This document shows, one piece after another, positions 51,534-54,989 of a stretch of DNA of 64,000 nucleotides. Below the pieces are notes generated by a model. It saw nothing but the letters and a program-made list of their open reading frames with translations. It made no database searches and was not told the origin of the DNA. The position numbers were made by a program, and so were the translations under genes. The DNA comes from Bdellovibrionales bacterium (GTDB taxonomy: Bacteria; Bdellovibrionota; Bdellovibrionia; Bdellovibrionales; UBA1609), in the NCBI GenBank assembly GCA_020628165.1, contig JAHDFM010000007.1, positions 60,336-124,335 of the forward strand, in the 5' to 3' direction. How positions within the stretch are numbered: position 1 is the first letter of the stretch; each line of letters starts with the position of its first letter.

Positions 51534-52697
51534 TTAGATGTAATTCTTTCTTTTAATTTTATCGATGATGATCTTCTCTGACATGATAGGATCTTTTGGG
51601 TTCACGGCAAAAATCGACTGCTGCTCACAACGTTTTTTTTCTTTGATCAACCATCTTAAGATATCAGCTAATTTTTTATTCTTTTTGTCGGCAAAGAACG
51701 GATCTCTTTCTAGGGCATCTTTTGCTTTTTTTAAAGCCCTAGCATCAGAAGCATTTTTTTCTGAAACCGGATAATAGTGCAAATCGTATCTTTTAATGTC
51801 ATCAGGCAACAAGCCTAAGAACTTCACCTCTGGTGCACTGAAATCAGCGTTACGAATTAAACTCGCAGCAGAGCCCGCTTTTAATGTGCGATAAATGTTT
51901 TGCAATGTATAGGCATCAAGATCTCCGTAAAAGTATATCGGCACATCCAATTGATCTTGAATGGTTTTACACCAACCTCTCACACCGTTACTTGGTACTC
52001 CTCGAGCACCAATGACGATGCAATTGTTTCTTTTGGTAAAACCATTGGTCACTAAAGTGTTAGCCATGGTTTCCGACTCTATCACTAAACAAAAATCAAT
52101 CTTACCTTTTTTAGGCTTTAATTTAAAAGACTGTGGTTTGTTTTGTGGTTGAAACGCTGACGTCCCCATACCACTCAAGTCTACAACGGCTTTCGAACCG
52201 TCTTCTAAGGTTTCTGTCACAACTAAGTTTTTAGAAAATGTTTGCCCACCGCGGTCCCCGGCATGGCAATTGAGCTCTTCGCGGTAAACTTCTAATAAAT
52301 CTGCAACGTAATTGATGACAGCATCTGTCTCTGATTGGTCTTGAACTTCTAGTGGCTTAAGTTTTGGATCGTTTTTACAAGCACCTTTAAGTATGTAAAA
52401 GAATCCCCTTTTTGAATTCACAGTTCCATTGCGAAGATTGTTCAACATGATATCAAGTATAAAGACTGTTCGAGCGATTTTCTGAACAGAAGAAACATTT
52501 AACTCTGTTGTAACAACTTTACCACCTGGAGTAAAAAAACCCTTTGATGCCTTATATATTGAGTTATCTAGAGAGCACTTAATAGCTTGCAACAATGGGC
52601 GTTGACCCTTTTCTAATGAAATTAGCATTTCATCACATAGGGCCCTAGCAATTTTTGGAATATCTTTATCCGATTTTCTTACTCTAATTTTTGGCAT
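51534..52697 (-). CDS. top6A: DNA topoisomerase VI subunit A (Spo11/Top6A family)
   Basis: SKRGFFY (catalytic-Tyr region, Y101), VIESETMANTL and FYGDLDAYTLQNIYRTLKAGS Toprim-like motifs; adjacent to Top6B. Confidence 0.93.
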   Translation of the reverse strand: MPKIRVRKSDKDIPKIARALCDEMLISLEKGQRPLLQAIKCSLDNSIYKASKGFFTPGGKVVTTELNVSSVQKIARTVFILDIMLNNLRNGTVNSKRGFFYILKGACKNDPKLKPLEVQDQSETDAVINYVADLLEVYREELNCHAGDRGGQTFSKNLVVTETLEDGSKAVVDLSGMGTSAFQPQNKPQSFKLKPKKGKIDFCLVIESETMANTLVTNGFTKRNNCIVIGARGVPSNGVRGWCKTIQDQLDVPIYFYGDLDAYTLQNIYRTLKAGSAASLIRNADFSAPEVKFLGLLPDDIKRYDLHYYPVSEKNASDARALKKAKDALERDPFFADKKNKKLADILRWLIKEKKRCEQQSIFAVNPKDPIMSEKIIIDKIKRKNYI

Positions 52698-52700
52698 AAC

Positions 52701-54599
52701 TTACCTTCTTTTAGATTTTGTTTTTTTCTTTGTCGTTTTTTTCTTAGTTTTCTTTTTCACTTTTTTGGCAGTCTTCTTTTTTGTAGCCTTCTTAGCTGCT
52801 TTTTTTGTGGCTTTTTTAGCTACCTTTTTCTTAGCTACTTTCTTTTGAACTTTTGCTTTAGTTTTCTTTTTAGCTTTTTTAGCCGTCGTTGCTTTTACAG
52901 CTGGCACATCCATTGACGCTTCTGTAGCTTCAGCTTCATCACCTTCAGCAGTGTCCACTTTCACTTTACCAAGCTTAGCCGCTTGTTTGTCTTTAAGAAG
53001 TGCTAGTTTTTCATCGGCGGCTTTTAAATCTTTCTCAGCTTCTTTGCTATCGCGCCCAAGTATTTTTACCAAACCTTGCTCAGCTCGTTTTTTACGATCT
53101 TTGCCAGCACCAACAATTTTAGCCAGTCCTTCCACTAAAATAGGGCCAAACTTTTCGATGTGAGCGCGCTTCCTTTCAAGGTCAGCGGCTTTGTTCTCAC
53201 GTTTAATGTGACGAGATAGCTTTTGCCCAGCTTGCATTAAGGCTCGGCGCAATTCTTCAACCAGATCATCACTGGCATCAATGGTTTCTTTCGATGCATT
53301 TTTAAATTTAATGAATGGTGAAGTCACACTGATGGCAAAAATATATGGCCCCAATGGCAAGCTTTTGCGAGATTGCATCAACCCATACGAACGCCAATTG
53401 ACGGACTCAACAGCTCGAGTGATGGCACAGGCTGATTTATCAAACTGTAAAGGAACTCTGTTGGCAAAACGCAATAACTGCACCGATTGCTCTTCGGCAG
53501 CTGCTTTTTTATCTAAGAAACGCGCAATGGCCACTTCCACCACAGTAGGTTTGAAATCACAAATTTTTGGTTTGCGAGTCACAACACTGAAGAAATCCAC
53601 TTCGCCGATGCGGTGAATACTTTTAGCAAGCCCCTCTTCGCCAACTGTTAATACTGATCTTGTAGATGGGTTGGCTAGGTCAGTATTTTGTATGGATTGA
53701 AAAATGGTTTTAAAATCTTTTTCAGGAATCTTTTGCACTTTCATGGTTTTTAATTTTTTGGGCAAACCATTTTTAAGCATATCTTTGACTGTCGCTTCAG
53801 TAACACGTGAAAAGGCTTTCTTTAGAAACTGCTCAAGAGATAAATTCCCATACAAATGAGCGTGAGTTAAAAACTCACCCAGCTTCATGGTATGTGGGTG
53901 TGGCAATGTTGGTGGCGGCACTTTTGGAACATCTGTTGATACTCTATCAACGCGCACTTTCTCTTTGTCGAGCAAATCGTATTCTAGAGTCAAATGTGGG
54001 TTCACAAGAGTGGTCCCCTCAAGATAAGTGATCAAGCCTCCATCACCATTTAACTGAATACGGCCATCAATTTTAAAATCAACCTTCAAACCATGAGGCT
54101 TCTTCCACTCAAAGGTTTCTTTGTTTTTTATCAACCCTTTGTTGCCTTTGATATCGACATCAATAGTTGCACGCACGGCTTTGCGCATTTTTTTGGTTTT
54201 GCTGATCACCTTAACACCAGTAGCATTGGTCAACTGGGCCCAAGTAGTGGCTGCTGAAATTCCAATCCCTTGTTGACCGCGGGAGCACTGCCCACGACCA
54301 AACTTTGATGAGGCCAAATACTCACCAAAAACTTGTGGCAAATCGGAAGGCTCTAAACCAGGGCCGTTGTCTTCCACTGTTATTTGAATCAAATCTGTGC
54401 TTTTTGCCGACCCTTTACCCACTTTCTTAATGCTGACTTTTAGCTCTGGAGCAATGCCAGCCTCTTCGCAAGCATCTAAGGAGTTGTCGACGGCTTCTTT
54501 TAAAGTAGTTAAGACGGCCTTTAATGGAGACGAGAATCCGACTTGTTGTAAGTTTTTAGCGAAGTACTCCGCGGTGCTACTTTTAGTAATTTTTGCCAA
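52701..54599 (-). CDS. top6B: DNA topoisomerase VI subunit B with Lys-rich C-terminal tail (TTG start)
   Basis: GHKL motifs KEAVDNSLDACEEAGI, EDNGPGLEPSDLPQVFGEYLASSKF, SRGQQGIGISAATTWAQLT; GGAGGGG RBS; K/A/T-rich tail. Confidence 0.95.
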   Translation of the reverse strand: MAKITKSSTAEYFAKNLQQVGFSSPLKAVLTTLKEAVDNSLDACEEAGIAPELKVSIKKVGKGSAKSTDLIQITVEDNGPGLEPSDLPQVFGEYLASSKFGRGQCSRGQQGIGISAATTWAQLTNATGVKVISKTKKMRKAVRATIDVDIKGNKGLIKNKETFEWKKPHGLKVDFKIDGRIQLNGDGGLITYLEGTTLVNPHLTLEYDLLDKEKVRVDRVSTDVPKVPPPTLPHPHTMKLGEFLTHAHLYGNLSLEQFLKKAFSRVTEATVKDMLKNGLPKKLKTMKVQKIPEKDFKTIFQSIQNTDLANPSTRSVLTVGEEGLAKSIHRIGEVDFFSVVTRKPKICDFKPTVVEVAIARFLDKKAAAEEQSVQLLRFANRVPLQFDKSACAITRAVESVNWRSYGLMQSRKSLPLGPYIFAISVTSPFIKFKNASKETIDASDDLVEELRRALMQAGQKLSRHIKRENKAADLERKRAHIEKFGPILVEGLAKIVGAGKDRKKRAEQGLVKILGRDSKEAEKDLKAADEKLALLKDKQAAKLGKVKVDTAEGDEAEATEASMDVPAVKATTAKKAKKKTKAKVQKKVAKKKVAKKATKKAAKKATKKKTAKKVKKKTKKKTTKKKTKSKRR

Positions 54600-54689: not shown

Positions 54690-54989
54690 CTAGGCTTGAG
54701 GACTTGACTGGTTCTGCTCAGCTTGTATCACAAATTCAGCGGGAGTCAGATGCGCCTTATTGGTATTACAGCTCTTACAGGCCACAACCACATTAGATTT
54801 ACTGGTTTTCCCGCCACGAGCGACAGGAACCTTGTGATCCATGGTCAGGAGCTCTTTAGGGAATGATTGCGAGCAATAGTAGCAGGTTCCTTTTGCCAAC
54901 TCTTGCTTCCACCATTGGCTGTTCTTTAGCTTTCTGGCTTTGGCTTTTTCTTTGGCTTTGATAGCCGGGTCGACAGCTTGGTAATACAT
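54690..54989 (-). CDS. HNH endonuclease-domain protein
   Basis: CYYCSQSFPKELLTMDHKVPVARGGKTSKSNVVVACKSCNTNK. Confidence 0.88.
   Translation of the reverse strand: MYYQAVDPAIKAKEKAKARKLKNSQWWKQELAKGTCYYCSQSFPKELLTMDHKVPVARGGKTSKSNVVVACKSCNTNKAHLTPAEFVIQAEQNQSSPQA

Follow-up and report, generated by a model that had tools for sequence, protein, structure and literature searches.

A topoisomerase VI locus of a Bdellovibrionales bacterium that probably encodes a working enzyme in place of topoisomerase IV

What does an archaeal-type topoisomerase VI (topo VI) do in a bacterium? The role of topo VI in bacteria remains to be established (PMC11302465). That topo VI occurs without topo IV in Bdellovibrio is already published: B. 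bacteriovorus (Pseudobdellovibrionaceae) was described in 2024 as having topo VI and gyrase and lacking topo IV (PMC11302465), and its gene Bd2864 has been noted as an archaeal/plant-type topo VI, with Bd0005 listed as Top IV (PMC11318664). To the literature searched, our analysis adds a phylum-wide replacement table, a missing loop in Top6B, the f23 lineage, a phage copy, the RGFFY motif and a histone H1-like tail. We analyzed a stretch of 64,000 nucleotides (the window), which belongs to a draft genome of 3.19 Mb (G000; 99% complete, in 56 contigs) whose nearest named relatives are Bdellovibrionales metagenome-assembled genomes.

The preliminary description had reported a complete minus-strand B-A gene pair with a 3-nt gap. 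We confirmed that the pair is complete and intact (Table 1); the spacer comprises nucleotides 52698-52700, and a Shine-Dalgarno sequence, AAAGGAGG, precedes the TTG start of top6B. As for the upstream neighbor, a homologue of the HNH protein was found upstream of top6B in 57 of 71 relatives, at a distance of no more than 300 nt in 37.

Table 1. Positions of the features discussed in the text
Feature	Position	Strand	Remarks
top6A, topo VI subunit A	51534..52697	(-)	387 aa, ATG start; winged-helix 5Y-CAP and Toprim
top6B, topo VI subunit B	52701..54599	(-)	632 aa, TTG start; GHKL ATPase, H2TH, transducer
Part of top6B that encodes its C-terminal tail, rich in lysine and predicted to be disordered	52701..52970	(-)	about residues 544-632
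Small HNH endonuclease-domain protein	54690..54989	(-)	99 aa; directly upstream of top6B, same strand; conserved neighbor
Phage topo VI A and B, complete	L220 2986-5812; L221 10001-12827		IMGVR_UViG_3300028558_000016

Family searches were performed with both proteins. Top6B scored 510 bits against NCBIfam NF003218 (cut-off 274) and 385 bits against TIGR01052 (cut-off 380.7), and it also matched PF02518 and PF09239. Top6A matched NF003335 with an E-value of 3e-106, which is under the strict cut-off of that family, and exceeded the cut-offs of Pfam PF21180 and PF04406. By sequence and by predicted fold, the top solved-structure matches of the two proteins were archaeal topo VI chains; residues 4-494 of Top6B aligned with 2q2e_B, near full-length. 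The H2TH domain is present (helices 240-304), with basic K260 and R265 at H2TH positions. The structure predictions, made from alignments without two plasmid rows, were of modest confidence (pLDDT 77 for Top6A and 60 for Top6B) and gave Foldseek superpositions with high rmsd; they were used solely for fold family and tail disorder. The assignment as an archaeal-type Top6B-Top6A pair stood, with matches both to curated families of topo VI and to solved structures from archaea.

We assessed the topoisomerase complement of the genome and found one GyrA-type protein (PF00521) with the GyrA box QKRGGKG, one GyrB (PF00204) beside it on contig C48, and one Top6A. No ParC/ParE and no second PF00521/PF00204 pair was detected in this 99% complete draft. 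The genome therefore does not follow the usual bacterial reliance on gyrase together with topo IV.

We surveyed 242 Bdellovibrionota genomes that were at least 90% complete, and Top6A was present in 155. In family f12, none of the 77 genomes had Top6A and 73 had at least two GyrA/ParC matches; in the three genomes checked, the second set was an adjacent ParE-ParC pair without the GyrA box. Outside f12, where Top6A and GyrA/ParC matches were tallied by hand, 155 of 165 genomes had Top6A and 158 of 165 had exactly one GyrA/ParC match. Topo VI had been described beforehand as scattered in bacteria; in this phylum it is near-universal outside f12 and no isolated oddity.

Ten genomes outside f12 were Top6A-negative, three of which have Top6B: the contig of G046 ends shortly past top6B, the Top6B match of G167 lies within 0.7 kb of a contig end on the 3' side, and top6B of G023 is split over separate contigs. 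Of gyrase, topo IV and topo VI, four small genomes of families f15/f16 (G209-G212; 1.7-2.0 Mb) yielded gyrase alone, indicating that this enzyme can suffice by itself in the phylum. The other three Top6A-negative genomes were G159, G198 and G245. One genome, G253, which shows 5% contamination, had topo VI together with a second type IIA pair.

Nearly all genomes outside f12 have topo VI and, of type IIA enzymes, only gyrase, so the likeliest role of topo VI is that of a resident decatenase replacing topo IV. We put at about 0.82 the probability that the product of the locus is a working type IIB topo VI (A2B2) that stands in for topo IV in the phylum. In such an enzyme, ATP-driven closure of Top6B would capture a second DNA duplex, and Top6A would make a Y101-linked double-strand break in the first duplex, through which the second would pass. 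This strand passage would decatenate sister chromosomes and relax positive supercoils, and gyrase, as the sole remaining type IIA enzyme, would supply negative supercoiling. We infer both the enzymatic activity and this division of labor with gyrase. Complementation of an E. coli parE(ts) strain by Methanosarcina mazei topo VI has been mentioned as an unpublished result (PMC11302465). The active-site changes E98G/Y100F, the absent KGRR loop (both described below) and the f15/f16 genomes with gyrase alone speak against this reading, as does the small number of independent events in evolution behind the replacement pattern. The phylum offers a natural experiment, in which one essential decatenase would have been swapped for another of unrelated DNA-gate architecture and both states occur.

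A real but specialized topo VI, with gyrase as the decatenase and topo VI reserved for a life-cycle step or for Spo11-like DNA breaking, is unlikely. The survival of G209-G212 on gyrase would be compatible with such a role, as would the growth of Bdellovibrio as multi-chromosome filaments (PMC11318664), in which topo VI could, for example, segregate several chromosomes. However, from family to family topo VI occurs where topo IV is missing and not in addition to it, and Top6B keeps all the GHKL motifs and the H2TH domain that are lost in Spo11-type partners (PMC11302465). Replacement of topo IV remains our preferred reading.

We examined the residues on which the activity of such an enzyme would depend. 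In Top6B, E35, N39, D77, G79, G81, R107, G108 and G111 were invariant in an alignment that included archaeal sequences, which bears out the intact GHKL motifs noticed earlier. In Top6A, R97, Y101, E207, D259, D261 and E358 were invariant in 124 of 124 sequences, and the catalytic residues aligned with those of M. mazei and Methanocaldococcus jannaschii Top6A; the Toprim Glu and DxD (E207, D259, D261) were invariant with the archaeal rows included. The preliminary description had made its reading depend on Y101 and the Toprim acids falling at catalytic positions, and the alignment came out in its favor. Its choice of SKRGFFY as the catalytic-tyrosine context was right as to Y101, but the motif departs from the family at E98G and Y100F. 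Position 98 is E in 122 of 124 Top6A and position 100 is Y in the same proportion; G98 and F100 occurred only in the window and in L029, the window's own second copy. In nearly all other Top6A the motif is RELYY or RExYY; it has stayed RELYY in L032 (82% identical) and L033, the nearest relatives. Compared with these relatives, E98G and Y100F are within-codon substitutions with no indel.

Could these changes impair or alter cleavage by Top6A of this species? We consider this very unlikely. Among 120 sequences, the window Top6A deviated the most at near-invariant columns, departing at 5 of 136 (E98G, Y100F, F118V, T211M, N331R), and two of the changes lie near Y101 in a motif that close relatives keep as RELYY. 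Nevertheless, Y101, R97, E207, D259, D261 and E358 are retained, Y100F is a mild substitution, and this Top6A is the sole copy in a genome where topo IV is absent. Moreover, Top6B showed no deviation at 197 near-invariant columns. The dN to L032 was 0.12 for Top6A and 0.07 for the Top6B core, far below dS, which was saturated or near saturation, indicating that both subunits are under purifying selection. The support for the earlier term "functional" is indirect and consists of strong purifying selection together with an active site that is otherwise intact.

We constructed trees to trace the descent of the locus. The Top6A proteins of Bdellovibrionota type formed one clade apart from archaeal sequences, in which the window grouped with its own genus; the deep joins of this tree are unsure owing to long branches. 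The gene order near top6, with HNH, glutaredoxin and aconitase genes, was common to relatives. Top6A and GyrA distances were correlated in 17 genomes (Mantel r = 0.38, p = 0.0002), indicating that inheritance has been partly vertical. In family f17 (L187, G214), Top6A grouped with Bdellovibrio and f8, and GyrA grouped with f18-f22 with moderate support, which makes it likely that topo VI was transferred between members of the phylum in this case; the placement of f12 on the GyrA tree is weakly supported. At least two transfers from archaea have been inferred (PMC11302465). The word "acquired" is apt to the extent that the family is ultimately archaeal in origin according to published trees (PMC11302465), but topo VI is near-universal in the phylum outside f12 and is no isolated import. 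Recent import from an archaeon into this single genome, with which the archaeal origin of the family (PMC11302465) would agree, is ruled out for practical purposes by the nesting of the window within the Bdellovibrionota clade beside its own genus and family and by the shared gene order.

Three other identities were considered and rejected. A pseudogene was ruled out by the intact frames and purifying selection. In topo VIII, A and B are fused in one polypeptide; this enzyme was ruled out, as the window has two separate genes in chromosomal synteny. Topo VIII has been found on free or integrated plasmids (PMC11302465). Spo11 with a topo VIB-like partner, a type of partner that loses the GHKL ATPase motifs and H2TH (PMC11302465), was ruled out by the complete GHKL and H2TH of the B subunit.

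We compared the pair with named systems. The topo VI of B. bacteriovorus (Bd2864; L080) shares the clade and the B-A order of the window, and its best segments are 68% (Top6B) and 69% (Top6A) identical; it differs in keeping RELYY and in a Top6B tail of net charge +2, against +33 in the window. Family f23 (G249-G251; L180-L182) has a different, Methanococcus-like topo VI. Like M. jannaschii Top6A (1D3Y), it shares superfamily and subunit order with the window, but its lineage is distinct: matches to 1D3Y had E-values of 1e-113 for f23 and 1e-26 for the window. These results point to f23 topo VI as a separate bacterial lineage that would have been acquired independently. The topo VI of M. mazei (PDB 2Q2E, 9O0G) has the GHKL-H2TH-transducer B subunit and 5Y-CAP-Toprim A subunit in common with the window, and the catalytic residues all align. 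The window differs from it at three points, with NGD in place of the KGRR loop, Q459 in place of stalk R457, and a disordered lysine-rich tail in place of the Ig-like C-terminal domain.

The basic KGRR loop of M. mazei Top6B senses DNA crossings and has been called essential for topo VI function, in a study that neutralized or reversed its charge (PMC5922973). The corresponding stretch in the window is LNGD, with NGD at residues 184-186 of Top6B, and the loop was absent in 103 of 103 Top6B of Bdellovibrionota type. The net charge over M. mazei positions 182-191 was 0 in 102 of these and +1 in the other one; the archaeal sequences (five) and those of f23 (three) carried +2 or +3. Stalk R457 was replaced by Q in all 103 (Q459 in the window), whereas archaeal and f23 rows have R. 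The WKxY motif was kept as W[RK]xY. These results imply that crossing sensing differs in detail from that of M. mazei, or that other residues do the job. In the topo VI literature searched, mostly outside subscription journals, we found no mention of this loss. With this loop missing, a mesophilic bacterial enzyme could serve to test the current topo VI mechanism directly.

The C-terminal tail of the window Top6B, about 90 residues long and predicted to be disordered, resembles histone H1 repeats, and K and R make up 60% of its last 60 residues. Tail net charge ranged from -8 to +36 among 103 Top6B (median +3); that of the window was the fifth highest, and close relatives had +31 and +34. Close relatives have the lysine tail and distant ones lack it, indicating a lineage trait. 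The tail as a general compensation for the lost KGRR was ruled out by the many members with neutral or acidic tails. The actinobacterial TopA, which belongs to an unrelated enzyme class, also has H1-like C-terminal lysine repeats; such tails give it processivity (PMC7398561), and M. mazei topo VI acts distributively (PMC5922973). By analogy, we speculate that the tail might provide an extra DNA contact in the window lineage.

Both subunits of Bdellovibrionota-type topo VI were also found on a 482-kb contig of a T4-like jumbo phage, IMGVR_UViG_3300028558_000016. Genes for a T4-type DNA polymerase (PolB) and a UvsX recombinase lie near them, and terminase, gp23-type capsid protein and tail sheath are encoded elsewhere on the contig. 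The phage Top6A was at most 81% identical to family f21, and the topo VI genes were close to their surroundings in GC content. No PF00521 type IIA topoisomerase was detected on the contig. The copy comes from one contig, which may be misassembled. Named phage records gave no topo VI match, plasmid records gave only haloarchaea and one short Synechococcus match without an annotated gene, and f23-type Top6B had no match in viral contigs. The phage copy is a plausible vehicle for the patchy bacterial spread of topo VI. A wider reading, which we find possible and somewhat doubt, is that Bdellovibrionota-type topo VI is a KGRR-less variant with another crossing sensor, serving as an essential, topo IV-replacing decatenase across most of the phylum and carried also by jumbo phages; on this reading, carriage by phages might account for its passage from one family to another. 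L221 7291-7929, only a few genes away from the topo VI of the phage, encodes a phage protein with a long AKKPAKK-type, histone H1-like lysine-rich stretch.
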